From Firmicutes bacterium FC7 (lineage in GTDB: Bacteria > Bacillota > Clostridia > Tissierellales > Tissierellaceae): a DNA stretch of 64,000 nucleotides. The DNA lies in contig JAKELU010000002.1 in the NCBI GenBank assembly GCA_022760735.1, forward strand, positions 1 through 64,000, in the 5' to 3' direction. The translations under genes were made by a program, and so were the position numbers. Positions 4,859-34,913 of this stretch are shown piece by piece. The stretch's first letter is position 1. Each line of letters opens with the position of its first letter. Under the pieces are notes generated by a model. The model searched no databases and was not told the origin of the DNA. It saw only the letters and a program-made list of their open reading frames with translations.

Positions 4859-4987
4859 TTAATATCTATTTGCATTTCACGACTCAATTTTTACTTCTTG
4901 CGTATAGGAATGTTTAGCTCTGATTAAAGTATGATATAGTCGTTCTAATAACATTTCATTATATTCATATTTTATGAGGAGGATATT

Positions 4988-13511: not shown

Positions 13512-13528
13512 AACCAATAAGCATACTC

Positions 13529-13645: not shown

Positions 13646-13658
13646 AGGAGTGTAGGTC

Positions 13659-17426: not shown

Positions 17427-18402
17427 TTTCCCTTATGGCCTTCATTAGATTTTCAGGTGTTACTGGTAGATGTGTCACCCTGACTCCAGTTGCATCATAT
17501 ATTGCATTTAATATGGCAGGACCAACTGGTATAGTTGTTGGCTCGCCTATTCCCTTAGCTCCATAAGGAGCCGTTGATTCAGGATCCTCAATTATTATGT
17601 TCTCTATATCTATCATATCCATGGAAGTTGGTATGAGATATTTCGAGAATCTATTATTTCTCATTTTTCCTTTGTCTAAGTTCAAATCCTCAAACAATGT
17701 ATACCCAAGACCCATAGCAAATCCACCATCCATTTGCCCCTCGACCAATCTTGGATTTACTGCCCTTCCTACATCCTGTGCAAAAATAGACTTCAACAAT
17801 TCTACTCTGCCTGTATTTGTATCTACTTCAACAAGTACCATACATGCATTAAATGTATATGGCCAATATGGAGCACCTTGGCCTGTTTCATCATCCATTT
17901 TTACTGTCTGAGCAGTAAATGTTCCTTTAGCCTTAATTATATCATCTTTATATATTTTACTTAACTCTTTGTAAGAAATTCTTTTATCTGGAAACATTGC
18001 AAGATAAACTACCCCATCCTTAACAATCAATCCTGCAGTTGAATTTAATCCTAAAGCTTTCTGAGCTGCTTTCTTTATTTCTTCATTAAAGTTTTCACAG
18101 GCTATTTTTATGGCATTACCAGTATTATATGTCTGCCTTGTAGCTGCAGCAGTTCCTGAATCGGGCATCATATCTGTGTCTTCATTAATAAAGATAATAT
18201 TCTTGTAATCCAATTGTAAGGTTTCAGCACCTATCTGAATTAAAGCCGTTTTTGCCCCTTGACCTACTTCTGTTGCTCCTACAAATATAGCCACTTTGCC
18301 ATCTTCCATCAACTGTACTTCCGCATTTGAGACATCAGGAAAGCCATTACCATAACCCGTTCCATAGAAGGACAGTCCTATACCTACTCCTCTTTTTTTC
18401 AT
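17404..18402 (-). CDS. Xanthine dehydrogenase-type hydroxylase, C-terminal molybdenum subunit
   Basis: This 332-aa chain is the second half of the molybdopterin-binding region. It has 'VGATEVGQGAKTALIQI' near 37, 'GTAAATRQTYNTGNA' near 78, and the active-site Glu loop 'GAKGIGEPTTIPVGPAI' near 290. It overlaps the upstream gene by four bases (ATGA) and has its own GAGGAGGAG, so the split is genetic design rather than sequencing error. Split large/medium molybdenum subunits are known in Eubacterium barkeri nicotinate dehydrogenase. Purine context makes xanthine/hypoxanthine the likely substrate. Confidence 0.9.
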   Translation of the reverse strand: MKKRGVGIGLSFYGTGYGNGFPDVSNAEVQLMEDGKVAIFVGATEVGQGAKTALIQIGAETLQLDYKNIIFINEDTDMMPDSGTAAATRQTYNTGNAIKIACENFNEEIKKAAQKALGLNSTAGLIVKDGVVYLAMFPDKRISYKELSKIYKDDIIKAKGTFTAQTVKMDDETGQGAPYWPYTFNACMVLVEVDTNTGRVELLKSIFAQDVGRAVNPRLVEGQMDGGFAMGLGYTLFEDLNLDKGKMRNNRFSKYLIPTSMDMIDIENIIIEDPESTAPYGAKGIGEPTTIPVGPAILNAIYDATGVRVTHLPVTPENLMKAIRESEKSEAI

Positions 18403-19694: not shown

Positions 19695-20166
19695 TTTTAG
19701 CTCCCTCCTTTAGGATTTCTATTGCTCTTTCTGCTGCATTTATAGCCTTATTATATCCAGTGCACCTACAGAGATTACCAGATATGCCTTCTCTAATTTC
19801 CTCTCTGTTAGGGTTTGGATGCTTATCCAATAGGGCTTTAGTTGACATAATCATTCCAGGTATACAAAATCCACATTGGACTGAGCCTTCCTCCATATAT
19901 GCTTTTTGGATAGGATGAAGCTCGCCATTTTCCTCAAGACCTTCTATTGTAGTAATATTGGAACCATCTGCCTGGAATGCCATTACCATACAAGAATTTA
20001 CACTTTCCCCATCCATGATAACTGTACATGCACCGCATTCGCCTTCCCCACAGCCTTCCTTAGTACCAACTAAACCCAATTTATCCCTTAAAAGATCTAT
20101 TAGTCTCATATTTGGGTCAATATCAACTTTATAATTAATTCCATTAATTACCAATTGAATAAACAT
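19684..20166 (-). CDS. Xanthine dehydrogenase-type hydroxylase, 2Fe-2S subunit
   Basis: 160 aa with two [2Fe-2S] clusters. The ferredoxin-like cluster is 'GCGEGECGACTVIMDG...NSC' (residues 38-59). The second, helical cluster is 'QCGFCIPGMIM' and 'GNLCRCTGY' (about 98-141). It transfers electrons from the molybdenum site to FAD. The start codon overlaps the stop of the FAD gene (TAATG) and its end overlaps the large molybdenum subunit by 11 bases, so all chains are co-translated. Confidence 0.95.
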   Translation of the reverse strand: MFIQLVINGINYKVDIDPNMRLIDLLRDKLGLVGTKEGCGEGECGACTVIMDGESVNSCMVMAFQADGSNITTIEGLEENGELHPIQKAYMEEGSVQCGFCIPGMIMSTKALLDKHPNPNREEIREGISGNLCRCTGYNKAINAAERAIEILKEGAKNEA

Positions 20167-21041
20167 TATAGAGTCACCTCGTTAAAGTAGCTTAAATTAT
20201 CCTTATATACTTCTTCGAAAAGTGTAACTACAGCTCTTCTCTTATATGGATAAGTAGATCTACCGACTAGTCTTTTATCCATAGAAGACTGTAAGGAACT
20301 TGCAGCTATTTTAAGAATTTCAGAATTAAATCTTTTACCTATTAAGGCCTCCTCAACTTCTCTTTCTCTCATTGGGTATTTCCCAATGGAGCCTGAAGCC
20401 ACCCTTATGTTTTCTATATTAACATCGTCATCTATACCTATTAAACTACTTAAAGTTACTCTGGATATGGCTAGTGCTTTTCTAAGTCCCAACTTACTAA
20501 ATCCAAGTACCTGATTTTTCTTTGGAATTTCAAATTCTATGCTCATTAAAAGCTCATCAGCCCTTAACCTATTATCTTCCTTTTCATTAAAATAATCTTC
20601 TAGCAAAAGCTTTCTATTGCCTCTAAGACTAGATATATTTAATTCTGCTCCAAGAGCTATTAAAGGTGGAATTGAATCTGCTGCTGGCGATGCATTGGCA
20701 ATATTTCCACCAATGGTTCCCTTGTTTCTTATTTGAGGGGAACCTACAAGCCTACAGGCTTTTTTAAATCCATAGAGATTTGTATCAAACAATTCATTTT
20801 CTACTATCTGTGTATAGGTAGTAGCTGACCCTATAATAATTTTATTCTCTTCAACCTGAATTTGTCTTAATTCATCTATTTTGGATATGTCAATAAGCAC
20901 CTTTGGGGTAATTTTACCATTTCTTAAGCCAATTATTATGTCTGTACCCCCTGCTATTATCTTTGCATCTTCCTTATATTGATTAAGCAATTCTAAAACT
21001 TCAGATATAGAGTTTCCTTTAAAAACTTGGTCCAAGGTCAT
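20166..21041 (-). CDS. Xanthine dehydrogenase-type hydroxylase, FAD subunit
   Basis: 291 aa of the CO-dehydrogenase flavoprotein type. FAD-binding loops are 'IIAGGTDIIIGLRNG' (33-47) and 'GTIGGNIANASPAADSIPP' (113-131). A C-terminal CODH_FAD domain is present. It passes electrons to NAD(P) or ferredoxin. First gene of the hydroxylase cluster; its AAGGGG ribosome binding site comes only about 20 bases after the terminator-like hairpin at 21065, leaving no room for a promoter. Confidence 0.93.
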   Translation of the reverse strand: MTLDQVFKGNSISEVLELLNQYKEDAKIIAGGTDIIIGLRNGKITPKVLIDISKIDELRQIQVEENKIIIGSATTYTQIVENELFDTNLYGFKKACRLVGSPQIRNKGTIGGNIANASPAADSIPPLIALGAELNISSLRGNRKLLLEDYFNEKEDNRLRADELLMSIEFEIPKKNQVLGFSKLGLRKALAISRVTLSSLIGIDDDVNIENIRVASGSIGKYPMREREVEEALIGKRFNSEILKIAASSLQSSMDKRLVGRSTYPYKRRAVVTLFEEVYKDNLSYFNEVTL

Positions 21042-21098: not shown

Positions 21099-22433
21099 TT
21101 AGATGAATATTTCCTTTAATACGAATAGTACTGCTAATACATACATAATTGCTGATACATCTTTTGATTTTCCTGTTATAGTTTTTAAGATGACGTATGA
21201 TACCATACCAAATACGATTCCTTCAGCTATACTATATGCAAAAGGCATCATTACTATTGTTAAGAATGCTGGTATAGCTTCTGTAAAATCATCCAAATCA
21301 ATCTCTTTAATAGGGCTCATCATGAACAATCCAACTAAAATTAGCGCTGGAGCTGTTGCAGCACCTGGAATCATACCGAATAATGGTGATAATACAAGTG
21401 CTAATAAGAATAATACTCCTGTTGTTAATGCAGTTAATCCAGTTCTACCACCTTCAGCTACACCTGATGCTGATTCAACATATGTTGTAACTGTAGAAGT
21501 ACCTAAACAAGCACCAACTGTAGTACCTATGGCATCAGCTAAAAGAGCCTGTTTAACTTTTGGAAGTTTTCCATTTTCATCAAGCATATTTGCTTTCGAA
21601 GATACACCTATCAAAGTGCCTAGTGTATCAAAAATGTCAACAAATAGGAATGAGAACATGACTATTAACATATCAAATGAGAAAACATTTGAGAATTCAA
21701 ACTTAAAAGCAACATCAGCTAATGATGGAGGCGCTGAGAATATTCCAAGGAACTGACCATTTGGCATATAGCTTACTCCCATTGGTAAACCAATAAGTGT
21801 TGTAATTATGATACCAAAGAATAATGCTCCTTTTACCTTCTTTGCAAGAAGGAATCCTGTAATTATTAAACCAATCAATGATAATAATGGAGCTGGTTGT
21901 GACAAATCTCCTAAACCAACAATTGTACCACCGCCACCTACTACTATACCTGCATTTGTAAAACCTATAAGTGCAATAAATAAACCGATACCTACAGATA
22001 CAGCTTTTTTCAAATTCATTGGAATAGAATTAAATATTGCTTCTCTGACATTAAAGAATGATAGCAGAATGAATAATATACCCTCTATTAGAACTGCTGT
22101 TAACGCAAACTGCCATGTATGACCCATTCCAAATACTACTGAGTAAGTAAAAAATGCATTAAGTCCCATACCTGGTGCAAGTGCAAACGGATAATTTGCC
22201 ATAAAAGCCATTGCAAAACATGCTATAGCTGATGAAATAGCCGTTGCTGCAAATACTCCTCCAAGATCCATTCCCGTTTCCGATAACATTCCAGGGTTTA
22301 CAGCTAAGATATAAGCCATTGTCATAAATGTAGTAAAACCTGCAAGAATTTCTGTCTTTACGTCAGTTTTGTTCTGCTTCAGTTTAAACTGTCGTTCTAG
22401 AAAGCTTTCATTAGTTACTGCTTTACTTGACAT
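21099..22433 (-). CDS. AzgA/PbuG-type purine permease
   Basis: 444-aa membrane carrier with about 12-14 helices, of the AzgA-like branch of the nucleobase transporter superfamily (hypoxanthine, guanine and adenine uptake by proton symport). Diagnostic stretches are 'EILAGFTTFMTMAYILAVNPG', split over residues 27-47, 'APGMGLNAFFTYSVVFGMG', 'DIFDTLGTLIGVSSKANMLD' and 'TSTVTTYVESASGVAEGGRTG' near 318-338. It follows adenine deaminase by 51 bases, and the two are probably one transcript. It supplies substrate to the whole island. Confidence 0.94.
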   Translation of the reverse strand: MSSKAVTNESFLERQFKLKQNKTDVKTEILAGFTTFMTMAYILAVNPGMLSETGMDLGGVFAATAISSAIACFAMAFMANYPFALAPGMGLNAFFTYSVVFGMGHTWQFALTAVLIEGILFILLSFFNVREAIFNSIPMNLKKAVSVGIGLFIALIGFTNAGIVVGGGGTIVGLGDLSQPAPLLSLIGLIITGFLLAKKVKGALFFGIIITTLIGLPMGVSYMPNGQFLGIFSAPPSLADVAFKFEFSNVFSFDMLIVMFSFLFVDIFDTLGTLIGVSSKANMLDENGKLPKVKQALLADAIGTTVGACLGTSTVTTYVESASGVAEGGRTGLTALTTGVLFLLALVLSPLFGMIPGAATAPALILVGLFMMSPIKEIDLDDFTEAIPAFLTIVMMPFAYSIAEGIVFGMVSYVILKTITGKSKDVSAIMYVLAVLFVLKEIFI

Positions 22434-22484: not shown

Positions 22485-24296
22485 TTAAATTATAGGAGGA
22501 AGAATCCTAAAATTATTTACATCTATTAGACCTTTATCTGTTATCTTCCACGTTGGGCTTGTAGATAGTGATAGGAATGATAGATGCATTAATGGAGAGT
22601 GTATTTTACATCCTAAATCTCTAGCTATTACATTTTCAATCTCTGCAATTTTTTGACTTACTTCATGTCCGTCCAGTTCATCAGTTATAAGTCCACCAAC
22701 AGGCAATCTCATTTCTGATATAACTCTTCCTCTTTTAGCAACTGCAATTCCTCCACCCATTTCTATTACCTTATTTACTGCTACCATCATATCTCTATAA
22801 TTAGTACCAGTAACCAAAATATTATGAGTATCATGAGCAACACTTTCTGCAAAAGCACCATCAGTCAAGCCAAATCCCTTTACAAAAGCCTTGCCTATCT
22901 TGTTACTTCTTCCGTACCTTTCGACACAGGCTATTAATAGCATATCTTTTGAAATATCAGGTTGAGCAATCCCCTGTTGGACTCTAACCATATCTTCATA
23001 TTTTTCAGTTAAATTCTGATCTGGTATTACTCCTATGGCTCTTGCCATAACAGTGCTGCCACTGGCATATATTTCTAAGTCCTTCTCGTTAATAGGACCA
23101 ACTTTTACCGAACACTTTACTTCATCAGGATAAGTATAACTTGGTAAATCTATTAGAAGTTTCCCCTTTGAAGCTACTAGCTTACCTTTAAGTATTACTC
23201 CTTCTACCTTCATTTCCTCTATGTCGCTTATTATTGCTATATCTGCTTGCTTACCTGGTGCCAATACCCCTACATGATCTAAACCAAAATATGTAGCTGG
23301 GTTTATGGTCACCATTTGTATTGCCTCAACAGGGGACACCCCTTGTTTTATGGTTCTTCTTACTATTTCATTCATATGGCCAAGGTTTTCTAAATCATCC
23401 GCAACCATATCATCTGTCGCCAATATACATCTTCTAGAATCCATACCTTCCTCTGTTACAGCCTTAATACACTCAGCCATATTCTTCTGAGTAGAGCCTT
23501 CCCTCATAAACAAGTATACTCCCTGTCTAAGCTTTTCTACTGCTTCAGCCTTGGTAGTAGTTTCATGGCAAGAACACTTTCCACCTGTAGCTATTATGTG
23601 TGCAGCTAATTCCTTACCAAATAGTTCAGGTGCATTTCCATCTACTACCATGTTCTTGCTTCTAGCATAGGTTGTTGAAGCTATTAAATCTGTGATTATC
23701 TCTGGGGTATTTCTATAAACATGTTTAGCATTACTAAAACCTTGTAATTCTCCTATACCAATTATGTTTTTATAATTTAACAAGTCCTCCATATCCTTTG
23801 ATGTAATATCATACCCTGCCGTTTCCAAGTCAGGTGAATCAGGAGTAAGTGCAGGAACTACAAGATAAACATTGTTTGGAACTCTATCTATTTCATCTGC
23901 CATTGCCTTCATTCCAATTGGCCCTAATGCATTTCCTATTTCGTGTGGATCTGCTACTAAAGTTGTTGTTCCTGAAGGTATGGACAATCTTGAAAATTCA
24001 GTGATTGTAAGCATGCTACTTTCAAAATGCATGTGTGAATCAATAAATCCTGGAGAAATATATTTCCCCTCAACATCAATAGCTAAAGTATTTGGCCCAA
24101 TAAGGTCCTTACAATCCCCAACAACTAATATATACTTATCCTTAATAGCAACATCGGCTTTATAGATTTCTCTAGTTAGGACATTTACAACATTACCATT
24201 TATTAAAACCATATCAGCATAGTTGTTACTTCCCATGAGAACATCTACTAACTGCCTATATTCTATTGCTTGCTTAAAGTAATTAGTGCTATTCAA
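22485..24296 (-). CDS. ade: Adenine deaminase
   Basis: Converts adenine to hypoxanthine and ammonia. The product is an amidohydrolase of 603 aa, normal for Ade. Metal-site motifs: 'PGFIDSHMHFESSMLT' (HxH near 92-94), 'VADPHEIGNALG', 'GELQGFSNAKHV', 'CILATDDMVADDL' (Asp). The C-terminal Ade domain has 'GGGIAVAKRGRVISEMRLPVGGL' around 520-542. The start is taken at the TTG giving 'MNSTNYFKQ', six bases after AGGAGG; the longer frame from an upstream ATG contains that ribosome binding site. It directly follows the BMC-P gene, so shell and deaminase share a transcript. Confidence 0.95.
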   Translation of the reverse strand: MNSTNYFKQAIEYRQLVDVLMGSNNYADMVLINGNVVNVLTREIYKADVAIKDKYILVVGDCKDLIGPNTLAIDVEGKYISPGFIDSHMHFESSMLTITEFSRLSIPSGTTTLVADPHEIGNALGPIGMKAMADEIDRVPNNVYLVVPALTPDSPDLETAGYDITSKDMEDLLNYKNIIGIGELQGFSNAKHVYRNTPEIITDLIASTTYARSKNMVVDGNAPELFGKELAAHIIATGGKCSCHETTTKAEAVEKLRQGVYLFMREGSTQKNMAECIKAVTEEGMDSRRCILATDDMVADDLENLGHMNEIVRRTIKQGVSPVEAIQMVTINPATYFGLDHVGVLAPGKQADIAIISDIEEMKVEGVILKGKLVASKGKLLIDLPSYTYPDEVKCSVKVGPINEKDLEIYASGSTVMARAIGVIPDQNLTEKYEDMVRVQQGIAQPDISKDMLLIACVERYGRSNKIGKAFVKGFGLTDGAFAESVAHDTHNILVTGTNYRDMMVAVNKVIEMGGGIAVAKRGRVISEMRLPVGGLITDELDGHEVSQKIAEIENVIARDLGCKIHSPLMHLSFLSLSTSPTWKITDKGLIDVNNFRILPPII

Positions 24297-24315
24297 ACGT
24301 TGACCTCCTTTCTCC

Positions 24316-24594
24316 TTACTCATCTAGGTCATGTATATCAATATTGTCTACAATTCCAATAATTGATGCATCTATAGGAGCATCCAACTTTCTAGCAGCA
24401 ATTCTACCTGCAGTACCAGTTGTATATATAACTATTTCTCCTATTCCTGCTCCTACAGTATCAACGGCAATTATTGGATCACCTTTAGGTTCCATATTAA
24501 ATTTGAGAGGCTGAGTAATCATTAGCTTGCTTCCTACCAATTTTTCATCTTTTCTTGTTGCGACTACTGTTCCAACTACTTTTCCTATATGCAT
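24316..24594 (-). CDS. BMC-P pentameric shell vertex protein (EutN/CcmL family)
   Basis: 92-aa bacterial microcompartment vertex protein. It shows the EutN/CcmL pattern: 'MHIGKVVGTVVATRKDEKLVG', split over residues 1-21, then 'IAVDTVGAGIGEIVIYTTGT' and a C-terminal 'IDASIIGIVDNIDI'. Five subunits cap each vertex of the shell. It is the only pentamer gene in the window, which is enough to close one icosahedral shell type. GAAAGGAGG precedes the start. Confidence 0.96.
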   Translation of the reverse strand: MHIGKVVGTVVATRKDEKLVGSKLMITQPLKFNMEPKGDPIIAVDTVGAGIGEIVIYTTGTAGRIAARKLDAPIDASIIGIVDNIDIHDLDE

Positions 24595-24609: not shown

Positions 24610-25329
24610 CTACCTTATTTCGATGCGAATTCCTAACTCCCTAGCTTTATCCTTAGCTAAAGGAGTTATTAATGTCCCTTTATTTAAAACTAGTACCTTT
24701 TGAGCATTATCCATATTTAAAATATCTTTTTCTGTAATTAACTTCTTATCTTGACTTGTATCTGATTTTACTTCAGCTTTAACTGTCTTTTTATTTTCTA
24801 TTTCTATAGCACCCATTTTTAAAACCTTATCTATATGACCTTCTATAATCTTGGTCATCTCAACAGATTTAGATTTGACCCCCATATAATGTTTTACTGA
24901 GTTAAAGCTAACATACACTGGCTTTCCCATGTAAAGATAGGACCAGATTAAATTTGAAACAAAACTATCTATCATACCTGTTGAAACCTTAGATAAGGTG
25001 TTCACTGTTATATTAGGTGCTACTAAAATTGAATGCTCTTCAACAATAGACTTTAGATTAGCAATATCCTCCTCTTTATAAATCCTTGTAGGCTTTATAA
25101 AATCAATTATTCTACTTGTGTCTATTAATCTTTCTGCCATAAAGGAAAATCCCAAGGATATATCATATTTATCCTTTAACTTTTCAATGAAATTAAGGCT
25201 TTTTGATATATCCAGATTTGAACCATTAAAAACAACTAAACAATTTTCTTTAAAACTTGAGGACTTATTGCTAATGATACTACCAGATATTCTATCTAGT
25301 ACATTATTAGTTAGATTTGAATAGACCAT
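24610..25329 (-). CDS. BMC-associated flavoprotein with EutQ-like C-terminal segment
   Basis: 239 aa. Residues 45-165 resemble the HFCD/flavoprotein fold (UbiX, Dfp): 'ILVAPNITVNTLSKVSTGMI' matches the usual 'vaPaTanTiaKia.Gi.D', then 'GKPVYVSFNSV'. A charged linker follows. The last 45 residues, 'KKLITEKDILNM' and 'GTLITPLAKDKARELGI', resemble the short N-terminal segment of EutQ-type microcompartment proteins. Such proteins occur in several BMC loci with unsettled roles. Here it may bind FMN, recycle prenyl-FMN or help assembly. It lies between BMC-H and BMC-P genes, 15 bases before the latter. Confidence 0.7.
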   Translation of the reverse strand: MVYSNLTNNVLDRISGSIISNKSSSFKENCLVVFNGSNLDISKSLNFIEKLKDKYDISLGFSFMAERLIDTSRIIDFIKPTRIYKEEDIANLKSIVEEHSILVAPNITVNTLSKVSTGMIDSFVSNLIWSYLYMGKPVYVSFNSVKHYMGVKSKSVEMTKIIEGHIDKVLKMGAIEIENKKTVKAEVKSDTSQDKKLITEKDILNMDNAQKVLVLNKGTLITPLAKDKARELGIRIEIR

Positions 25330-25346: not shown

Positions 25347-25625
25347 TTAATCATACTGAGATAGAATCACTCTTTCTACCTCTGCATGAGGTCTTGGTAT
25401 TACGTGAACTGAATGAAGTTCTCCAACTGCCCTTGCTGCTTCTGCACCTGCGTCTACAGCTGCCTTAACTGCTCCTACATCTCCTCTTACCATAACTGTT
25501 ACAAGACCGAAACCTATCTTTTCATATCCTACTAACGTTACATTTGCCGCCTTAACCATTGCATCTGCTGCCTCAATACTACCTACTAATCCTTTAGTTT
25601 CAACTAAACCTAATGCTTGACTCAT
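25347..25625 (-). CDS. BMC-H hexameric shell protein 3
   Basis: 92-aa single BMC-domain shell protein, the most canonical of the three: '[20 protein letters not shown]', then '[20 protein letters not shown]', then '[12 protein letters not shown]'. The pore loop is Lys-Ile-Gly-Phe-Gly. Six copies form a tile with a central pore. The start is the second of two adjacent ATG codons, eight bases after AGGAGG. Likely the main facet protein. Confidence 0.97.
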
Positions 25626-25664
25626 CATTTTTCCTCCTTTTTATTAATTAGTAACTTAACCTAA

Positions 25665-25697: not shown

Positions 25698-26054
25698 TTA
25701 ATCCTTACTATCAAGGTCCTCTTTTTCTTCAACTTTAACTTTCTTTTCTTCCTTCTTCTTCAAGTTTTTAGAGAATTTTTCTATAAGCCTATCAACCTCT
25801 TCATGAGGTCGTGGTATTACATGACTAGATATTACTGTGCCAACTCTATTGCCAGCTATGACTCCAGCCTCTACAGCTGCCTTTACTGCAGCTACTTCTC
25901 CTGCAATATTAATTGTTACACCTACAGCTTTGTCCACACCTATTACCTTTTCTACTCCAATTAAGGTAATGTCAGCTGCTTTACTAGCTGCATCCAAGGC
26001 TGTAACAGCTGTTGTCAATCCACGTGTCTCTATAAGCCCTAGTGCTTTATTCAT
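25698..26054 (-). CDS. BMC-H shell protein 2, variant pore loop and charged C-terminal tail
   Basis: 118 aa. The BMC fold is clear ('ALGLIETRGLTTAVTALDAA', 'AAVKAAVEAGVIAG', 'SSHVIPRPHEEVDRLIEKF'), but the pore region reads 'VEKVIGVDKAVGVTINIAGEV', about 3-4 residues longer than in the sister proteins and lacking the usual small-residue pore. A 25-residue Lys/Glu-rich tail follows the fold. A changed pore suggests a different passenger, and the tail may face the lumen or cytosol for docking. Its role is inferred. Confidence 0.95.
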   Translation of the reverse strand: MNKALGLIETRGLTTAVTALDAASKAADITLIGVEKVIGVDKAVGVTINIAGEVAAVKAAVEAGVIAGNRVGTVISSHVIPRPHEEVDRLIEKFSKNLKKKEEKKVKVEEKEDLDSKD

Positions 26055-26074: not shown

Positions 26075-26302
26075 TTAACGGCCATTTTTAATATAGTTAA
26101 CTGCTTCATCAAGGGACATTATTTTTGCAGAAGTATTTTCTACAACTGCCTTTTTATCACCATGAATTATTTCCTTGATAAGACTAATTTGCCTGTCATC
26201 TAAATTGCCTTCAACTTTTGAAAAGCCGCTATTTGTGTACTTATTGCTTTGAACATTGCCTTTTAATTTACTTTTCATATCAATCATAGCTAAGGGGTTC
26301 AT
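26075..26302 (-). CDS. Small protein encoded within the BMC operon, 75 aa
   Basis: I do not recognise this family. It is soluble, with a polar, disordered N-terminal half ('MKSKLKGNVQSNKYTNSG') and a C-terminal half likely to form two helices ('LDDRQISLIKEIIHGDKK', 'MSLDEAVNYIKNG'). It is translated from an ATG eight to nine bases after AGGTGG, immediately behind a BMC-H gene and 20 bases before the next. Conserved position inside the shell block suggests an assembly, cargo-linker or minor lumen protein. Confidence 0.7.
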   Translation of the reverse strand: MNPLAMIDMKSKLKGNVQSNKYTNSGFSKVEGNLDDRQISLIKEIIHGDKKAVVENTSAKIMSLDEAVNYIKNGR

Positions 26303-26314
26303 TTGCTTCACCAC

Positions 26315-26578
26315 CTAAAATATTTTCTCAACTTCATCATGAGGCCTTGGTATAACATTAGCTGAAATAACCTCTGAAACTTGAGCAGCTCTTTCCTTTC
26401 CAGTATCAACAGCTGCCATTACAGCTGCTACCTCACCTGTTACTGTTACCGAAACAAGACCAGAGCCTACCAACTGAAAGTCTAGTATTTTTACATTTGC
26501 AGACTTTAACATTGCATCTGCGGCTTCAATGGCTCCTACAAGACTTCGTGTTTCCACCATTCCTATTGCTTCTCTCAT
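26315..26578 (-). CDS. BMC-H hexameric shell protein 1
   Basis: 87-aa single BMC-domain protein: 'AIGMVETRSLVGAIEAADAM', pore region 'FQLVGSGLVSVTVTGEVAAV', end 'SANVIPRPHDEVEKIF'. The pore has Gly-Ser-Gly, the type seen in shells that pass small polar metabolites. It starts three bases after the UbiD stop codon, so the decarboxylase and shell are tightly coupled. Confidence 0.97.
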   Translation of the reverse strand: MREAIGMVETRSLVGAIEAADAMLKSANVKILDFQLVGSGLVSVTVTGEVAAVMAAVDTGKERAAQVSEVISANVIPRPHDEVEKIF

Positions 26579-26581
26579 TTA

Positions 26582-27937
26582 TTACACCTCCAGGTTCGGG
26601 AAGTATTTCCTAATATCAATCGTTTCATATCCTGGTATCCTAACACGTTCAAACCTTCCATCTGTGTTTAAAGGTTTTGTTGCGTCTATTCCTATCTTGT
26701 CTGTTACCCCTCGTAGATCATGAGAAGGTTCCAGAGATGAACCTAATGCCCCAGGAATAATTACTACATCGTGACTTGCTTGAGCTCTAGTTGTAATTGC
26801 CCATTCTATTTCCCTAGGATTATAAATATCTACATCATCATCTACTATAACAACTTGTTTAAGATCCTTATTTAAGCCTAATGATGCAATGATAGCTGTT
26901 TTTGCTTCCCCTAGTCTTGTTTGTTTCATGGATACAACAGCATTAAATCTATATCCTCCACCTTCTGTCACATAGATATCTTTTATGGTGGATATCTGAT
27001 TTTTTAAGTAAAAGTACAACTCCATTTCCCTTATTAATCCATTAGTCAGGTGTTCTTCTTCACAAGGAAAGGCAGTTTCATATATTGGATTGTTCCTATG
27101 GGTAATACAGTCAATTTCTATAATAGGTTGAGGGGCTTGCTTACCATAATAGCCCATAAGCTCTCCAAATGGACCTTCTAACTCTCTCCTACCAGCTACA
27201 ATTCTACCTTCTAGTACTATCTCTGCATATGCTGGTACTAGGATATCATTGGTCTCACATTTCACAAGCTCCAATGGTTCCCCCCTTAGGGCACTATCTA
27301 TTTCATATTTATCTACTCCATAGGTTCCACTAGGATATTGAGATGCTAGTAAAAATTGTGCATCATACCCTAAAACTATTGCTACATCCAATGATTTGCC
27401 TTCTCTTTCTAACTCTAAGAAATCATTTGTTAACTTATATGAACCTATTAGTGCAGATATTATATTTCCTCTATTTACTTGCATACGTCTTACCGATGTA
27501 AAATGTCTCTTGGTTTCAGGATCCCTTATAACCATTACACCAGCTGTTATGAAGTTTGAAGAATCCAATTCATTAAACCTATTAACTGGTAATATCTTCA
27601 TAATATCAATATTTCTTGTTATTATATTTTCCTTAACAGGCCCAGTATTGACTACCTTATATGGTTTAGGAGATACAAGAGCTTCCATGAATTTATAGTT
27701 TCTATCTTCCTTTGTACAGCCAATAAGATCAAATAATATATCCCTATTACCATATAATCCACCTACAGATCTTATATTGCTGTTTTTTACCTTGTTAAAG
27801 AGAATAGGCATCTTATTATTAAAATGCTTTAAAACTGCTCCCATCTCGTAGTTATAATCAACTTCTCTATTACACTCTAGTAAGTTATTAGAGGCTCTTA
27901 ATCTGTCTAGAGTATATCTAAGCATTTGACGCTCCAC
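26582..27937 (-). CDS. UbiD-family prenyl-FMN decarboxylase, candidate 4-amino-5-imidazolecarboxylate decarboxylase
   Basis: 451 aa. UbiD marks: 'HFTSVRRMQVNRGN' near 145-158 (the conserved Arg region) and 'EIVLEG' at 239-244 with 'ELEGPFGELMGYYG' at 252-265 carrying the acidic active-site residues. 'YETAFPCEEEHL' and 'VVIVDDDVDI' are typical of the family. UbiD enzymes decarboxylate or carboxylate unsaturated and heteroaromatic acids with prenylated FMN made by UbiX, encoded next door. In this operon the expected substrate is 4-amino-5-imidazolecarboxylate. GTG start, eight bases after GAGGAGG; an ATG four codons later is possible. It directly precedes the shell genes, suggesting it is cargo. 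Confidence 0.9.
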   Translation of the reverse strand: MERQMLRYTLDRLRASNNLLECNREVDYNYEMGAVLKHFNNKMPILFNKVKNSNIRSVGGLYGNRDILFDLIGCTKEDRNYKFMEALVSPKPYKVVNTGPVKENIITRNIDIMKILPVNRFNELDSSNFITAGVMVIRDPETKRHFTSVRRMQVNRGNIISALIGSYKLTNDFLELEREGKSLDVAIVLGYDAQFLLASQYPSGTYGVDKYEIDSALRGEPLELVKCETNDILVPAYAEIVLEGRIVAGRRELEGPFGELMGYYGKQAPQPIIEIDCITHRNNPIYETAFPCEEEHLTNGLIREMELYFYLKNQISTIKDIYVTEGGGYRFNAVVSMKQTRLGEAKTAIIASLGLNKDLKQVVIVDDDVDIYNPREIEWAITTRAQASHDVVIIPGALGSSLEPSHDLRGVTDKIGIDATKPLNTDGRFERVRIPGYETIDIRKYFPNLEV

Positions 27938-27978: not shown

Positions 27979-28536
27979 TTACTGTCCACTCCATCTTTTT
28001 ATTAAATTGTTATCTATACCAAACATATCTAGAATTCTACCCGTCATATTTAATACAATGTCCTCTAAGGAGTCAGGATGGTTATAGAAGCCTGGACTAG
28101 GAGGGAAAATAGTCACACCAATTCTAGATAATTTCAACATATTTTCCAGGTGGATTGGACTTAGTGGTGTTTCTCGTGGGACTAATATTAGCTTTCTGCC
28201 TTCCTTGATGGCTACATCACAAGCCCTAGATATAAGAGAATCAGAGAAACCGTTTGCAACACTTGCAAGAGTCTTCATAGAGCATGGGACTACTATGGTT
28301 CCATCCACCTTAAAAGAGCCGCTAGCTATAGGTGCTGCAAAGTTTTTATTATCGTGATAATATGTAGCCATGCTCTTTAGTTGGTCAAGGCTTATTCCGC
28401 ATTCATGATTCATTACATATTCGCCCATGGTTGAGACTACTAAATGAGTTTCTATATTTAATTCCTTTAAAGCCTTCAAGAGTGAAACACCGTATATAGC
28501 TCCGCTGCCTCCTGATATTCCAACCACTATTCTCAT
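27979..28536 (-). CDS. ubiX: UbiX-family flavin prenyltransferase
   Basis: Makes the prenylated FMN cofactor for the neighbouring UbiD protein from FMN and dimethylallyl phosphate. 185 aa, normal. Motifs: 'VGISGGSGAIYGVSLLKAL' at the N-terminus (FMN loop), 'VVPCSMKTLASVANGFSDSL' near 81-100 and 'LVPRETPLSPIHLENMLKLS' near 137-156. AAGGAG lies nine bases before the ATG. A 22-nt perfect palindrome separates it from the upstream amidase gene. Confidence 0.94.
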   Translation of the reverse strand: MRIVVGISGGSGAIYGVSLLKALKELNIETHLVVSTMGEYVMNHECGISLDQLKSMATYYHDNKNFAAPIASGSFKVDGTIVVPCSMKTLASVANGFSDSLISRACDVAIKEGRKLILVPRETPLSPIHLENMLKLSRIGVTIFPPSPGFYNHPDSLEDIVLNMTGRILDMFGIDNNLIKRWSGQ

Positions 28537-28559: not shown

Positions 28560-28581
28560 AGGGGAAGGATATCCTTCCCCT
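28560..28581. repeat. Perfect 22-nt palindrome between the amidase and ubiX
   Basis: AGGGGAAGGAT is followed at once by its exact reverse complement. There is no T-run on the minus strand. As RNA it makes a stable hairpin just downstream of the amidase stop codon and could protect the amidase message or mark a processing point; as DNA it could bind a dimeric regulator. Confidence 0.6.
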
Positions 28582-28592: not shown

Positions 28593-29204
28593 TTATCTAA
28601 CCTTATTTTCTGGATCTCCTCCACCAACCCATGGATCCAATCCTTTTTCCCATGCATCCTGATATTCAGCTATTGTCATTACCTTAGTGAATATACTTAA
28701 ATCCTTTAATCCCCACTCATGCATTTCCTTAGTCTTAGAATCAACACCATCACTTAAGGTAATAACCTTATATGCTCTAGCCAATGCATCTGTTGCAGTA
28801 CTTCTAACACAGACATTAGTCCATGTTCCAGTAACTACTACTGTATCTATATTTTCTTCTCTTAGGTATAAATCTAAATCTGTATACGCAAATGCACTAT
28901 GTCTTCTCTTAGGAACAACATATTCGTCACCTTCAGGAGCAAGCTCATCTATAATTTGTGAACCCCATGTTCCAGCAACTGCATGAACAGGACGAACCTT
29001 GAAGTCTGCATCGTTTTTACGATGTGCTTCCTGTATGTGAACTATTTGTATATCATCTTTACCTTCTGCTCTTCTTGCTCTAACCCACTTAAATAATTCC
29101 TGTAATCTTGGAATTATTCTTCCAGCTCCTTCACAATAAAGAGCTCCTTTTGGATTAGCAAAATCATTTAACATATCAATTACTAAAATCGCGTGTCTTG
29201 GCAC
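28593..29204 (-). CDS. Isochorismatase-fold amidohydrolase, candidate ureido-imidazolecarboxylate hydrolase
   Basis: 203 aa with the Asp-Lys-Cys triad of the cysteine hydrolases: D10 ('LVIDMLNDF'), K99 ('VVPKRRHSAF') and C132 ('GTWTNVCVRSTATDA'). This family includes N-carbamoylsarcosine amidase, ureidoacrylate hydrolase and biuret hydrolase, all of which cleave carbamoyl-amines. In this operon the matching step is hydrolysis of the ureido group of 4-ureido-5-imidazolecarboxylate to amine, CO2 and ammonia. The start is the GTG giving 'MPRHAILVID', seven to eight bases after GGGGG; the longer open frame has no ribosome binding site. Confidence 0.88.
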   Translation of the reverse strand: MPRHAILVIDMLNDFANPKGALYCEGAGRIIPRLQELFKWVRARRAEGKDDIQIVHIQEAHRKNDADFKVRPVHAVAGTWGSQIIDELAPEGDEYVVPKRRHSAFAYTDLDLYLREENIDTVVVTGTWTNVCVRSTATDALARAYKVITLSDGVDSKTKEMHEWGLKDLSIFTKVMTIAEYQDAWEKGLDPWVGGGDPENKVR

Positions 29205-29281: not shown

Positions 29282-30880
29282 CTAAAAAGTTATTTGCTTA
29301 GGTAATTGTTGAATGCTTTGTCTCTTTATCCATTGACCAAAGCCTGGTTTTGCAACTATACCCTTGATGCCTCTTATATGCTTATCAATAACTTCTGGAT
29401 GATTTATTCTATAGCTATTTAGATATTCAGCACTATAAAGATCAGGATAATTCTTGAATTGTTCTGGATATTTTTCCTCTACTCCTTCAGGGAAATTATG
29501 AACAATTCTTTGTAGCTCTTCGTCAGTTAATTCTGCTAAGGAGCTTTCTTCTACATCTTCAAATACTAAGTGTCCACGTACTATTGTCTTTGCAACTTTG
29601 CCCTTCAGCTTCATCCCTTCTAATGGAGTATATCCACACATTGAAGCTTGCTCTTTTGGATCGATTACCCATTCTTTATCTAAATTGATTATTGTGAAGT
29701 CTGCATCTGATCCTATGAACATAGCACCTTTCTTAGGATATAGACCATAATGGATTGCCGCATTTTTACTTAATATATCAACTAACTTTGAAAGTGATAT
29801 TCTTCCCTTGTTATAGCCTTCACTTACTAATATAGGAACCATTGTTTCAACGCCTGGGATTCCAGGGAACGCTGTCCATACGTTCATGCCTTCTTTGGCT
29901 TTTTCGCTTTCAATTTCATAAGGCGCATGGTCAGTAGCTATAAAGTCTACACTTCCGTTATTTAATCCTTCCCAAAGCTCTTCATTATCCTTCTTTGTTC
30001 TTAGCGGTGGAGCAATCTTTGCAAATGCACCGTATTTAGACATTGCATCTTGATAGTTAAGAGTTAAATAGTGTGGACATGTTTCACTTGTAACATCAAG
30101 TCCCCTCTTCTTTGCTTCTCCTACCAGTTTAGCTCCAATTCCAGTACTCATATGAACTATATGAAGTCTTGCGCCACTTGCTTCTGCAAAGCTTATTCCT
30201 AATTCTATAGCAACCTTCTCAGCAAGTTCTAATCTAGCCTCTGCCCAAGCAGGACCATCCATTCTTCCTTCTTTTTGGAACTCTTTTACATAATAATCAC
30301 ACATTGCAAAGTTTTCAGCATGGATACCTATTGGTAATCCTGTTTTAGCTACAGCTTTAAAAGCTTCGTACATTTCTGGATCTGTTACTCTTGGGAAAGT
30401 AGGAACTGATGGAGTCATATAGGCCTTATATGCAACTACTCCAAAATCTGCCTGTTCTTGAACATGATCTAGCCATCCTTCTCTTACATCTTCGCCAGTT
30501 ACTCCGCCCCATAATGCAAAGTCTACAAGAGCCTGTGGTTGTACTAGGTCAACTTTAAGTTGTAGTTGCTCAGCACTTCTTACTGATGGTACTGAACAGC
30601 AAGGCATGTCAATAACTGTAGTAATTCCACCTCTTGCTGCCGCAGCTGAACCTGTAAGGAAATTTTCTCTGTGTGGGAAACCTTGATACATGAAATGGGT
30701 ATGGGAATCTATACAACCTGGTAAGGTTAAGTGGCCATTTGCATCAATGATCTCCTTTGCATCAACATTTTCTATTGAATCTACAAAACCAGCTATCTTC
30801 TCATCTTTCACCAAGATGTTTGTCAGTATAGTATCATCGCCCTGAGGTATTCTTGCGTTTTTAATAATTACATCGTACAT
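29282..30880 (-). CDS. Hydantoinase/allantoinase-type cyclic amidohydrolase, candidate xanthine ring-opening enzyme
   Basis: Binuclear-metal amidohydrolase that opens cyclic amides or ureides. Metal ligands: H60 and H62 ('IDSHTHF'), the carboxylated Lys152 ('VVAYKAYMTPS'), H187 ('IHAEN'), H243 ('HIVHMST') and D317 ('ATDHAPY'). At 532 aa it is about 70 residues longer than dihydropyrimidinases or allantoinases; residues 455-532 form an extra tail that ends in a basic amphipathic stretch 'QWIKRQSIQQLPKQI'. First gene of the BMC operon, preceded by GGGGGAGG. In context, hydrolysis of the pyrimidine ring of xanthine is the best guess; allantoin or dihydropyrimidine are alternatives. Confidence 0.88.
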   Translation of the reverse strand: MYDVIIKNARIPQGDDTILTNILVKDEKIAGFVDSIENVDAKEIIDANGHLTLPGCIDSHTHFMYQGFPHRENFLTGSAAAARGGITTVIDMPCCSVPSVRSAEQLQLKVDLVQPQALVDFALWGGVTGEDVREGWLDHVQEQADFGVVAYKAYMTPSVPTFPRVTDPEMYEAFKAVAKTGLPIGIHAENFAMCDYYVKEFQKEGRMDGPAWAEARLELAEKVAIELGISFAEASGARLHIVHMSTGIGAKLVGEAKKRGLDVTSETCPHYLTLNYQDAMSKYGAFAKIAPPLRTKKDNEELWEGLNNGSVDFIATDHAPYEIESEKAKEGMNVWTAFPGIPGVETMVPILVSEGYNKGRISLSKLVDILSKNAAIHYGLYPKKGAMFIGSDADFTIINLDKEWVIDPKEQASMCGYTPLEGMKLKGKVAKTIVRGHLVFEDVEESSLAELTDEELQRIVHNFPEGVEEKYPEQFKNYPDLYSAEYLNSYRINHPEVIDKHIRGIKGIVAKPGFGQWIKRQSIQQLPKQITF

Positions 30881-30929: not shown

Positions 30930-31100
30930 TTATAAACCTTGTTAGAATACAATAAATATTTACTAAGTTTTCATAAAAATATGAGATTTATTTGTATATT
31001 TTTTCTAATTTTTTGTAGTAATTATATATATAATCCCTGCATATTAAAAAGTATAATGTCTTATAAGTGGAAATATGATAAGAAAAAGGGGGGATTTTTT

Positions 31101-31796
31101 TTGGGTCTTAAGCTTATAGATCTATCTCAGGAAATTTATGAAGGTATGACAATATTTCCAATACATCAAAAAACTTTTATAATGACCAATCAAACCCATG
31201 AGCAGAATATGAAGAATACTGGAAGTAAGACCTTAGGTTTTTCAGCTAGAAACTTGCTTATAAGTGAGCATGCAGGAACCCATAGTGATGGAGTTTATGA
31301 GTACAACCCTAAGGGACCTACCATCGATAAGATGCCATTAGAATATTTCTGGGGTAGTGCAATCTGTCTAGATGTTAGTCATATTAGGTATCCAAATTAT
31401 TTTGATCCAAAGGATTTAGAGGAAGCTCTTAGACGATCAGGTCAGGAAATTAGAAAGGGCGACATAGTTCTTCTTTACACAGGACATCATGACAGACACT
31501 TCGGTACTGAAATGTTCCAAAAAGAATATGCAGGGCTAAGCTATGAAGGAGCTAAGTGGCTAGCTGAAAAAGGAGTAGTAAATATAGGGGTAGATGCACC
31601 AGCTGTTGATTTAACACCGGATGACTTAGATTTTTCTGCACACCTAGTATGTGGAGAATACAATATTACAAATACTGAAAATCTATGTAACTTAGATAAG
31701 CTTGTAAATAAGAGGTTCTTGTACATAGGACTGCCACTTAAGATAAGAGATGGTACTGGATCACCAATTAGAGCTGTAGCATTGGTTGAGGAGTAA
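31101..31796 (+). CDS. Cyclase-family (kynurenine formamidase-like) hydrolase
   Basis: 231 aa, metal-dependent hydrolase of the cyclase/isatin hydrolase family. It opens 'LKLIDLSQEIYEGMTIFP' and carries the metal motif 'SEHAGTHSDG' (HxGTHxD) near residue 54, then 'VLLYTGHHDRHFG' and 'LAEKGVVNIGVDAPAVD'. Family members hydrolyse cyclic or N-formyl amides. Start is the TTG at 31101, about seven bases after AAGGGGGGA. It is divergent from the BMC operon and shares its control region, so it may open 4-imidazolone to formiminoglycine or act on a later intermediate. That role is inference. Confidence 0.87.
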   Translation: MGLKLIDLSQEIYEGMTIFPIHQKTFIMTNQTHEQNMKNTGSKTLGFSARNLLISEHAGTHSDGVYEYNPKGPTIDKMPLEYFWGSAICLDVSHIRYPNYFDPKDLEEALRRSGQEIRKGDIVLLYTGHHDRHFGTEMFQKEYAGLSYEGAKWLAEKGVVNIGVDAPAVDLTPDDLDFSAHLVCGEYNITNTENLCNLDKLVNKRFLYIGLPLKIRDGTGSPIRAVALVEE

Positions 31797-31801: not shown

Positions 31802-31842
31802 AAAGATAAAAGAATTACTTTCCAAGTAATTCTTTTATCTTT
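31802..31842. terminator. Bidirectional terminator, cyclase gene / pucR
   Basis: A 19-bp near-perfect stem around a TCC loop, A-rich on the left and T-rich on the right. It overlaps the last codons of pucR. Confidence 0.85.
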
Positions 31843-33485
31843 AATGCTATTTCTAGATTTAATCGATTATGTGGATTTTCCAAGTCCATTCCTGTTATTT
31901 CATTTATTCTATTTATTCTATATAGTACTGTATTATAGTGGGTAAATAACTCCTTTGATATTTTAGTTAAATTGCCATTGTTCTTAAAATAAACCTCAAG
32001 AGTTCGTATTAATTCTGTAGCCTTTTTTCTATCATAGTCTACTAGCGGCTTCAAAGTAGTATTGTAAAAATCCTCTAATTCCTCATATAAATAATCCTGT
32101 GATAATATCTTAAAAATTCCTAACTCATCATATGTAACAACTGTTTTATCAGTAACTGATTTACCAATTCTAACTGTTCTCACTGCATCATGAAAGCTCT
32201 TGTGAACATTCTCAAGGTCTTTATAGACTCTTCCAACCCCTACTTTTAAGTCAATATTCTTATACTTGTCCTCAAATATACATTGTAATTTTGAATTAAA
32301 ATTTTGAACCTTTGCCTTTATATTTTTATTCTCCGAAAATCCGAGTAATACCTGTATACCATTAGTCTTAGTTGATACTATTCCTTCTAGTTTATAGTAA
32401 GCCATCAAATCTTCAATAGACGTAACAAAGGTACTAATCAAATCCCCCATACAATCCATTTCATCGTAATCTGCATTTTCTTCGCATTTAAATTTAAAGC
32501 TCATTACCTCTATTAGGTAATAATTATCTTCTTTAAGGTTAAAAAACTTGGCTCTATCTAGGGCTTTTTTCTTTCTTTTTGCATCTTGGGATACTAAGTC
32601 CTCGAAAAAATCTGATCTATATTTAATTTCTACTTCCTTTACAGATAGCTCCTGTAAAATTGATAAGGATATGGTTGTCGAAGCACTTTCTATTATTGCT
32701 AAGTCAAAACCACCAAGAGGCATATGAGTAGCCCAGGTAAACATGTGGCCATATATATTGTCCCTTAGTATAATCGGCATAATCATCCTCTTAACAAATT
32801 TACCACCTATAAGAACCTTATCCTCATCAAGTCTCTTAAGTTTGTCTCTCTTGCTTCCAGATTCATAGAAGTTATTTACTTCCGTCAGAAGTTCTTTTCT
32901 TATTGATTCACTTGTCTCTCCAAGCTGCTCATAGGTTTCATTTGAAAAGACAAGGTTTAGAATTACAGGGTTTCGTATATTATCCTGAACAATCTTTAAT
33001 ACTTCATTGATTCCTTTTCCTTCTAGCATTATATTCATCAACTTCTCATGAACCTTTTCAATGCGTTCCAATAAAGATGCCTGCTTATTAAATATTTCCC
33101 TAATTGCAATCATCATGATATCAGATAGAGGTATTGATTGATGAATCTCTATAACTGGAAAATTCAATTTGTTTGCATACTCAATTACTTCCAGTGGTAA
33201 ATTTTCTAGATAAGGTGAAATCTTAATTCCTATTCCTGCCAGCTTGTTTTCAACACATACCTTAATTAGTTGTTTTTGAGCCTTAATATTATCATCTCTA
33301 AAGAAGTAAGCAGTGGTTAAAAGAAACTCACCTTCTGCAATCCAATCAAGAATATCAGGGTCAGCCATGATATTTACCCTGGATATGGTATTTCTTACTC
33401 CTCTAAATCCTGCTATAAGAGTGCAATTTTTCATAACATCAAGCTTCAACATGTCCTCTACACTGATACCATTTTTCCTAGACAC
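31815..33485 (-). CDS. pucR: PucR-family purine catabolism regulator
   Basis: 556 aa. An N-terminal PucR ligand-sensing domain ('SVEDMLKLDVMKNCTLIAG', 'EFLLTTAYFF') occupies 1-125. The middle region (about 270-420) is GGDEF-like. The C-terminal CdaR-type helix-turn-helix is 'NLTKISKELFTHYNTVLYRI' followed by 'RINEITGMDLENPHNRLNLEIALK', split at residue 526. B. subtilis PucR controls purine degradation genes. Located between the guanine deaminase and BMC operons on the same strand as guanine deaminase, it is the likely regulator of the island. Confidence 0.93.
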   Translation of the reverse strand: MSRKNGISVEDMLKLDVMKNCTLIAGFRGVRNTISRVNIMADPDILDWIAEGEFLLTTAYFFRDDNIKAQKQLIKVCVENKLAGIGIKISPYLENLPLEVIEYANKLNFPVIEIHQSIPLSDIMMIAIREIFNKQASLLERIEKVHEKLMNIMLEGKGINEVLKIVQDNIRNPVILNLVFSNETYEQLGETSESIRKELLTEVNNFYESGSKRDKLKRLDEDKVLIGGKFVKRMIMPIILRDNIYGHMFTWATHMPLGGFDLAIIESASTTISLSILQELSVKEVEIKYRSDFFEDLVSQDAKRKKKALDRAKFFNLKEDNYYLIEVMSFKFKCEENADYDEMDCMGDLISTFVTSIEDLMAYYKLEGIVSTKTNGIQVLLGFSENKNIKAKVQNFNSKLQCIFEDKYKNIDLKVGVGRVYKDLENVHKSFHDAVRTVRIGKSVTDKTVVTYDELGIFKILSQDYLYEELEDFYNTTLKPLVDYDRKKATELIRTLEVYFKNNGNLTKISKELFTHYNTVLYRINRINEITGMDLENPHNRLNLEIALKIKELLGK

Positions 33486-33499: not shown

Positions 33500-34801
33500 C
33501 TAACAATTGGGAATTAACTGTGTATTTATTAAAAAAGGTTTATATACTTTCTTTCCTTTTACAAATCTATCAATTATATTTTCTCTAGACCCTTCATAAA
33601 TAAATTTTTGAAGTTTTTCTTCTGGGGTTAACGTTTTCAAATATGCTAAATTATCAACGTCTATTACAAGTAAATCACACTCATATCCTTCCTCAAAACT
33701 ACCTACATTTCCAAAGAAGCTTCCACCACCCTTTGTAGCTAAGAAGAACACTTCAGATAAGGTTAAAGGAGCTAGTTCCTTGTTGCTCTGTAGCCAAACC
33801 ATCTTAGAAGTTTGCATGGCACCAACCATAACCTGAGGCATGCTAATTGTATGTCCACCAGAAATATCTGAACCAAGTCCTACTTTTACACCTTGATTCA
33901 AATACTTTCTTATAGGGCTTAATCCGCTGGAAAGATTAAAGTTAGAATGTGGACAATGTGCTACATATACTCCATTTTTAGCCATTAATTCAGTTTCTTC
34001 ATCTGTATTGTATACACAATGGGCCATAATGGTTTTTGTTTGTCCAAACAAATTGAATCTATCATATACTGATGCATAATTCTTTGATTCAGGATATAAT
34101 TCTCTAACCCATTCTACTTCTGATGTGTTTTCATTTAGATGTGATTGTACAGGGATATTATACTTTATAGCAAGCTTTCCTAGTTCTGTAAGTAGCATAT
34201 CTGTGCAAGTTGGGATAAATCTAGGTGTGATTATTGGTTTAACTAAATCCGAGACGTCTTTAAACTCAAGTATAAATTCTTCTGTTTCGATTATTGATTG
34301 ATAAGAATCTTCAATCAAAGCTGGTGCACTATTTCTGTCCATATTTACTTTTCCTACTAAAGCACCAAGTCCCGATGCTATAAACATATCCATAAGTAAT
34401 TTTGTGCTTTCTAAAAATATGGTCGAATATACAGAACATCTAGTGGTACCCTCTGCCCAGAGAGCATTAATAAATTCCTCAAATACTCTCCTTGAATATT
34501 CTAAATCAGAGTATTTACTTTCTTCTGGAAAAGTATATGTATTTAGCCAAGGAATGAGTTCCTTGTCCATTCCCAAGCCTCTATTAGGATACTGTGGTGC
34601 ATGAAGATGGACATCTACAAATCCTGGTATAATTATTTTACCAGAATAATCATAAAATTCATAGCATTTGTATAAATTTTCTAATTTGTCTGTTATTTTT
34701 ACAACATGTCCGTCTTCTACAATGAGATAAGAGTTTTCATATATTTCAAATTTATCCTTTGTTGGAGTATGGATTATGTCGCCTTTAAATACTGATTTCA
34801 T
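33500..34801 (-). CDS. guaD: Guanine deaminase
   Basis: Converts guanine to xanthine and ammonia. 433 aa amidohydrolase with the guanine-deaminase signature 'PGFVDVHLHAPQYPNRGLGM' followed by 'WLNTYTFPEE'. Further metal ligands are in 'VQSHLNEN', 'TIMAHCVY' and 'GLGSDISGG'. The start is the ATG giving 'MKSVFKGDI'; a GTG one codon upstream is equally well placed after GAGGAG. pucR follows 14 bases later. Alternative: the enzyme could also act on 4-aminoimidazole, the one deamination step without another candidate. Confidence 0.94.
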   Translation of the reverse strand: MKSVFKGDIIHTPTKDKFEIYENSYLIVEDGHVVKITDKLENLYKCYEFYDYSGKIIIPGFVDVHLHAPQYPNRGLGMDKELIPWLNTYTFPEESKYSDLEYSRRVFEEFINALWAEGTTRCSVYSTIFLESTKLLMDMFIASGLGALVGKVNMDRNSAPALIEDSYQSIIETEEFILEFKDVSDLVKPIITPRFIPTCTDMLLTELGKLAIKYNIPVQSHLNENTSEVEWVRELYPESKNYASVYDRFNLFGQTKTIMAHCVYNTDEETELMAKNGVYVAHCPHSNFNLSSGLSPIRKYLNQGVKVGLGSDISGGHTISMPQVMVGAMQTSKMVWLQSNKELAPLTLSEVFFLATKGGGSFFGNVGSFEEGYECDLLVIDVDNLAYLKTLTPEEKLQKFIYEGSRENIIDRFVKGKKVYKPFLINTQLIPNC

Positions 34802-34913
34802 CACATTTATCACTCCTCAAAATAATATATGAAAGGATATGTTAAAATAGTACCAAGTAAATTATAGAAGAAATTGTAAAACATTAATATATGAAAACTC
34901 TACAAAAGTGCCA

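Follow-up and report, generated by a model that had tools for sequence, protein, structure and literature searches.

Which reaction is carried out by a small isochorismatase-fold hydrolase encoded among genes for purine breakdown is the question raised by this locus, which lies in the window, the whole stretch of 64,000 nucleotides analyzed here. The initial annotation had named this protein as the hydrolase that removes the ureido group from 4-ureido-5-imidazolecarboxylate, an intermediate of anaerobic xanthine degradation. In the passage that treats this step, the 2012 genome analysis of Clostridium acidurici states that the genes for it could not be found (PMC3519856). Our analysis indicates that the enzyme very probably catalyzes the second hydrolytic step of the anaerobic xanthinase pathway, with 4-ureido-5-imidazolecarboxylate as its substrate.

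The hydrolase gene and the surrounding microcompartment locus

The open reading frame for the hydrolase occupies exactly 28593-29204 on the minus strand, with 203 codons to the stop. It starts with a GTG at the 29204 end, preceded by a strong Shine-Dalgarno sequence (AAAGGGGGAAATAAA), and the plus strand across the same interval contains stops throughout; a longer reading frame is possible from a TTG at 29270. The only Pfam match of the 203-residue translation is to the isochorismatase family (PF00857), which covers residues 5-180 with an E value of 7.7e-45 and a score of 153.5 bits against a gathering cut-off of 27. The catalytic residues D10, K99 and C132, described as an intact triad in the initial annotation, are all in place at these positions, and the triad is kept across the orthologous group.

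Directly upstream on the same strand lies a gene for a cyclic amidohydrolase related to allantoinases, hydantoinases and dihydroorotases (29282-30880), the proposed xanthine amidohydrolase (xanthinase) on the evidence of family profiles, motifs and its pairing with the hydrolase. It carries the motifs HTHF at residue 60, AYKAYM at 150, GIHAEN at 185, LHIVHMS at 239 and ATDHAPY at 315, which we take to contribute the metal ligands. Downstream of the hydrolase gene, the minus strand encodes a UbiX-family flavin prenyltransferase (27979-28536; TIGR00421, 248.2 bits, cut-off 108.9), which makes the prFMN cofactor for UbiD, and then a UbiD-family protein (26582-27937; TIGR00148, 322.9 bits, cut-off 244.85), the proposed 4-amino-5-imidazolecarboxylate decarboxylase. 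The order of amidohydrolase, amidase and decarboxylase given in the initial annotation is thus right in sequence, except that the UbiX gene stands between the last two. A perfect 9-bp hairpin is present at 28560-28581, in the gap between the hydrolase and UbiX genes.

The UbiD gene is followed directly by microcompartment shell genes, which the initial annotation had not mentioned. Between 24316 and 26578 we observe three PF00936 proteins, all of BMC-H size, with 87 residues (26315-26578, 1.7e-26), 118 residues (25698-26054, 9.5e-23) and 93 residues (25347-25628, 7.9e-31), as well as one shell vertex protein of the BMC-P (EutN/CcmL) type (24316-24594; PF03319, 3.3e-31). Also within this block are a microcompartment-associated protein similar to TIGR02536 eut_hyp (24610-25329; 49.4 bits, below the cut-off of 152.6) and, between two of the BMC-domain genes, a 79-residue reading frame with no match in the Pfam search (26075-26314), which could encode a small cargo or shell-associated protein. 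The BMC-P gene overlaps by 8 bp the gene for an adenine-deaminase-family protein (22485-24323; TIGR01178, 493.2 bits, cut-off 472.5), the proposed 4-aminoimidazole deaminase of the XauE type. Next come a purine permease (21099-22433), named by inspection of its translation and kept beside the locus in relatives, and four reading frames for xanthine-dehydrogenase-type subunits (17404-21041), likewise named by inspection. All of these genes lie on the minus strand, and gaps from the amidohydrolase gene to the permease gene do not exceed 77 bp. On the other side of the amidohydrolase gene, a divergent plus-strand gene encodes a cyclase/arylformamidase-like hydrolase (30939-31796; profile match to PF04199), the proposed 4-imidazolone ring opener, and is followed on the minus strand by a PucR-family regulator (31815-33485; PF07905 and PF13556) and a guanine deaminase (33500-34813; TIGR02967, 375.9 bits, cut-off 375.4). 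Promoter-like sites between 21000 and 33600 show no excess (46 versus a mean of 51.1 in shuffled sequences), and the Rfam search gave no match within the purine locus. Away from it, a c-di-AMP riboswitch (RF00379, 92.7 bits) was detected at 13524-13652, and the reading frame downstream of it, at 13659, resembles a peptidoglycan-binding cell wall hydrolase.

The ring hydrolase, isochorismatase, UbiX/UbiD pair and deaminase are found together here, as in microcompartment loci of the BUF/Xau type. In their treatment of the BUF locus, Axen et al. (2014) describe shell genes without an aldehyde dehydrogenase, list amidohydrolases, a deaminase, a carboxy-lyase, an isochorismatase with no function given and formiminotransferases as its enzymes, and propose only that it processes nitrogen-containing compounds (PMC4207490). 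The locus in the window shares with that description the shell genes, amidohydrolase, deaminase and isochorismatase as well as the lack of an aldehyde dehydrogenase: PF00171 matches occur in the genome only on contigs C1 and C44, not on the locus contig C12. Ravcheev et al. (2019) named such a locus Xau and, in the section devoted to it, predicted that it degrades xanthine anaerobically, the third step, XauC, being removal of the carbamoyl group; the Xau locus described there resembles ours in its ring hydrolases, amidohydrolases, decarboxylase, xanthine dehydrogenase and shell (PMC6620236).

Gene order and co-occurrence among relatives

Relatives of the hydrolase at 56-84% identity form one group spread over the Clostridia and Bacilli. 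Within the class, a search of 291 genomes at an E value of 1e-20 or better gave 27 matches in 26 genomes, which split into 10 close ones (67-100% identity) and 17 distant ones (32-47%). The order amidohydrolase, hydrolase, UbiX, UbiD is kept at all 10 close homologues, whereas none of the 17 distant ones has an amidohydrolase, UbiX or UbiD gene in the flanks examined, which extend up to 1.5 kb. When up to five amidohydrolase candidates per genome were scored across the 291 genomes, the amidohydrolase (70-100% identity) turned up in exactly the same 10 genomes as the close hydrolase (67-100%); amidohydrolase homologues of only 36-38% occur in two further genomes and as a second copy in genome G141.

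A wider scan drew on 84,980 species, each represented by one genome, and we analyzed the best 80 of 448 confirmed loci; these were picked by similarity, so that counts among them speak to conservation within the group and not to frequency in nature. They comprise a set at 66-83% identity, mostly from Clostridia (L028-L075), and a set at 56-61%, mostly from Bacilli (L076-L107). The amidohydrolase gene lies directly upstream of the hydrolase gene at 80 of these best 80 loci, with only its last part present at a contig edge in L051. The two genes are separated by 17-408 bp in 79 cases and overlap by 6 bp in the remaining one (L070). Among the same best 80 of 448, a UbiD gene follows within 4 kb downstream at 64 loci and is found elsewhere in the locus at three; in four of the 13 where it was not seen, the contig ends within 1 kb. 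BMC genes were seen at 67.

Several of these loci have features of their own. Xau-type gene sets are present on two contigs labeled Pseudomonadota, from Brenneria sp. 4F2 (L070) and from a metagenome-assembled genome titled Rhodospirillales (L068); both amidases are nearer the Clostridia group, at 69% identity, and either transfer or mislabeled assemblies may account for them. Upstream of its main copy, Evansella vedderi (L083) carries a second isochorismatase-type gene (46% identity), flanked by the xanthine-dehydrogenase genes on one side and the amidohydrolase on the other. A DUF1989 gene (PF09347) adjoins the cyclase gene in Bacilli loci (4614-5237 in L086 and 18729-19343 in L083). In another metagenome-assembled genome (L058), the amidase gene at 4402-5007 contains an internal stop, reflecting either a pseudogene or an assembly error.

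The Paenibacillus loci are arranged differently. In five of them (L091, L096, L097, L104 and L106), the amidohydrolase/amidase pair lies away from the block of UbiD, BMC, deaminase and cyclase genes, at a distance of roughly 10 kb by contig arithmetic that assumes the matched contigs to be identical. In four others (L086, L088, L092 and L100), the pair adjoins the block on the opposite strand. We considered whether the loci with the pair alone represent a truncated two-step pathway and rejected this, as each of the nine Paenibacillus genomes searched also carries genes for UbiD, the deaminase, BMC-domain proteins and the cyclase. One Paenibacillus genome (G295) has a UbiD gene in three pieces on contig C9 (52429-53866) and a second, intact cluster on C1.

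These arrangements bear on whether the hydrolase could instead act later, with formiminoglycine or some other carbamoyl or formimino compound as substrate, while a different protein of the locus removes the ureido group. The locus does encode other hydrolases that might do so, namely the amidohydrolase, the cyclase and the deaminase, but we know of none among its other proteins that comes from a family known for such ureido hydrolysis. The strict pairing of the hydrolase gene with the amidohydrolase gene also speaks against a later role, as does the separation of the pair from the UbiD/BMC/deaminase/cyclase block in Paenibacillus, which would be expected of two consecutive early steps. On balance, we regard the later role as improbable, even though the assignments of Ravcheev et al. 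lend it some support: their text on the Xau locus gives xanthine opening (XauA) to Amet_4587 and the imidazolone step (XauF) to Amet_4584, and also names Amet_4587, possibly by misprint, for the carbamoyl step (PMC6620236). By our reading of the Alkaliphilus metalliredigens numbering, Amet_4584 would be the amidohydrolase, Amet_4583 the isochorismatase and Amet_4581 the UbiD protein. If so, the strict amidohydrolase/isochorismatase pairing argues for the amidohydrolase as the enzyme that opens xanthine, the reverse of the XauA/XauF assignment, and against a role for it in the imidazolone step.

Comparison with RutB, BiuH and structure 3hb7

Another alternative is that the hydrolase is a ureidoacrylate hydrolase like RutB or a biuret hydrolase like BiuH that stands at this locus by chance. 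The common fold and the best NCBIfam matches favor this, with 69.2 bits for the BiuH profile (NF050097) and 68.6 bits for RutB (TIGR03614), but these scores fall far short of the respective cut-offs of 370 and 377.95. The nicotinamidase equivalog cut-off is likewise missed widely, and the NCBIfam release searched contains no equivalog whose cut-off the hydrolase reaches. No other rut genes were noticed on inspection of the reading-frame lists.

The comparison with RutB by tree that the initial annotation had proposed also separates the two. We built a tree from 40 rows of the hydrolase clade and 24 others, the latter including the 17 distant class homologues, Escherichia coli RutB and six PDB sequences. 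A branch with support of 100/99 separates the hydrolase clade from all other rows. RutB groups with Rhodococcus BiuH and PDB entries 3irv and 3kl2 (99/95), apart from that clade, although branching within the outgroup is unsure because several PDB rows are long branches or partial sequences. E. coli RutB shares the fold, triad and carbamoyl chemistry but belongs to a separate clade, and we consider a RutB- or BiuH-like enzyme at this locus highly improbable.

Conserved residues were taken from an alignment of 85 rows, which leaves out L058, with its internal stop, and L032, L049, L050, L060 and L074, duplicates of genomes already included; L068 is absent from the tree. The triad is present in 84 of the 85 rows, the exception being L068, which was aligned in the wrong frame and whose true translation has the triad. 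In the same alignment, E59, R71, W80, H102, E117, W128, S135 and G165 are near-invariant in the clade and rare outside it. RutB also has tryptophan at position 80 and serine at 135, and the BiuH row has glutamate at 59 and arginine at 71, so none of these four residues is diagnostic singly. From sequence conservation, R71, W80, H102 and W128 are candidate specificity residues.

In BiuH, a covalent thiocarbamate complex has been trapped in the crystal, Lys145 is part of the active-site hydrogen-bond network and the backbone of Thr171 contributes to the oxyanion hole, according to the structural results reported for the enzyme (PMC5806882). Rhizobium BiuH is only 23-25% identical to the hydrolase; the two have the fold and the Asp-Lys-Cys triad in common. 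Judged by spacing from the triad in the alignment, His102 of the hydrolase would correspond to Lys145 of BiuH and Trp128 to Thr171.

The AlphaFold model of the hydrolase, made with 10 sequences, has a mean pLDDT of 83.1, and residues 62-81, a stretch that contains both R71 and W80, fall under 50. Its closest structure is PDB 3hb7 from A. metalliredigens (Foldseek 3.8e-27), with a Z score of 30.9 over 189 residues versus 24.1 for the next entry. The two proteins are about 71% identical over 189 residues and belong to the same clade; the title of the entry calls the protein an isochorismatase-like hydrolase, with no function stated. A. metalliredigens is also the Xau reference genome in the account of Ravcheev et al., and Bacillus fordii DSM 16014, given there as another Xau genome, corresponds to our L085, which carries the cluster (PMC6620236). 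The N-carbamoylsarcosine amidohydrolase of Arthrobacter (PDB 1nba) is a further match by sequence (1.3e-18) and by fold (Z of 21.5), represented in the tree only by the 'related' protein 3eef and not by 1nba itself.

Proposed reaction, the shell and the wider genome

Because members of this family act on a wide range of substrates, the argument for function leans mainly on gene position. The assignment made in the initial annotation draws support, at the level of sequence, from the pairing with the amidohydrolase, the UbiX/UbiD decarboxylase pair encoded next, the N-carbamoyl hydrolase fold with its triad and the exclusion of RutB and BiuH. On this basis we describe the protein as a proposed 4-ureido-5-imidazolecarboxylate amidohydrolase of the XauC type, with substrate, products and chemistry drawn by analogy with BiuH. 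The upstream amidohydrolase would open the pyrimidine ring of xanthine to give 4-ureido-5-imidazolecarboxylate. C132, activated by D10 and K99, would then attack the terminal ureido carbonyl, with ammonia leaving and a thiocarbamate forming, from which water would free carbamate to yield CO2 and 4-amino-5-imidazolecarboxylate. The latter would be decarboxylated by UbiD with the cofactor supplied by UbiX, and the deaminase and cyclase-family protein would take 4-aminoimidazole and the imidazolone in turn, probably partly inside the microcompartment.

Where these enzymes stand relative to the shell we infer from loci in which the two are separable. In addition to the separate pair in Paenibacillus, Thermosyntropha (L081) encodes UbiD and the deaminase along with the pair, and searches of its genome for BMC-domain and cyclase genes gave no match; the absence of a BMC-domain match beside these enzymes suggests that the shell is probably unneeded for the chemistry. 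Both observations are consistent with a tentative model in which a cytosolic amidohydrolase/amidase front end may feed 4-amino-5-imidazolecarboxylate into a microcompartment housing UbiD, the deaminase and the imidazolone opener; the unstable 4-aminoimidazole would then be both formed and consumed within the shell. In the same model, the amidase would read the imidazole carboxylate through R71, W80, H102 and W128, which neither RutB nor BiuH has as a set, and would form a recognizable isofunctional subfamily.

A second adenine-deaminase-family gene on contig C3 (47850-49496), outside the purine locus, scores 619.7 bits against TIGR01178 and so outscores the copy at 22485-24323, which leaves the latter free for 4-aminoimidazole; the two-copy pattern agrees with its proposed role. 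Three formiminotransferase-type genes suited to the end of the pathway are found only elsewhere in the genome, outside the locus. A 2,3-diaminopropionate ammonia-lyase is encoded on contig C2 (61085-62254; TIGR03528, 647.7 bits, cut-off 532.25), and a reductive urate route may therefore coexist with the xanthinase route. The least probable alternative, an allantoin route with the amidohydrolase as allantoinase, takes its support from the best matches of that protein, two allantoinase models at 373.6 and 354.3 bits, but the first lies below its cut-off of 631 and the second just below its cut-off of 357.85, the genome gave no uricase match and UbiX/UbiD are not known to take part in the degradation of allantoin.

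The xanthinase pathway assignment is well supported and already known in substance, as judged from the prediction of Ravcheev et al., from what Tong et al. reportedly found and from two papers of 2025 that cite that study. Tong et al. (2023, Cell Chem Biol 30:1104) reportedly described four hydrolases of different families and a prFMN decarboxylase, the second hydrolase presumably having the isochorismatase fold. In the open literature searched, we found no text naming an isochorismatase-fold enzyme for the ureido-imidazolecarboxylate step. In the relevant passages, both Percudani (2025; PMC12990295) and Li et al. (2025; PMC12507026) credit Tong et al. with the xanthinase pathway genes, the latter describing a gene cluster in Clostridia and Bacilli, the same two groups in which we find relatives of the hydrolase. 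Our analysis adds counts of orthologs and of co-occurrence, a set of candidate residues for specificity, evidence against the imidazolone step that Ravcheev et al. gave to the amidohydrolase, and the separation of the pair from the shell block.

The orthology-based signature makes it possible to annotate genomes for the ureido-removal step, and the assignment suggests a function for structure 3hb7. The gain lies in annotation and in a more precise model of this unusual microcompartment rather than in a new enzyme function, for a process, the breakdown of purines without oxygen, that is relevant to soil and gut anaerobes and to the lowering of uric acid.
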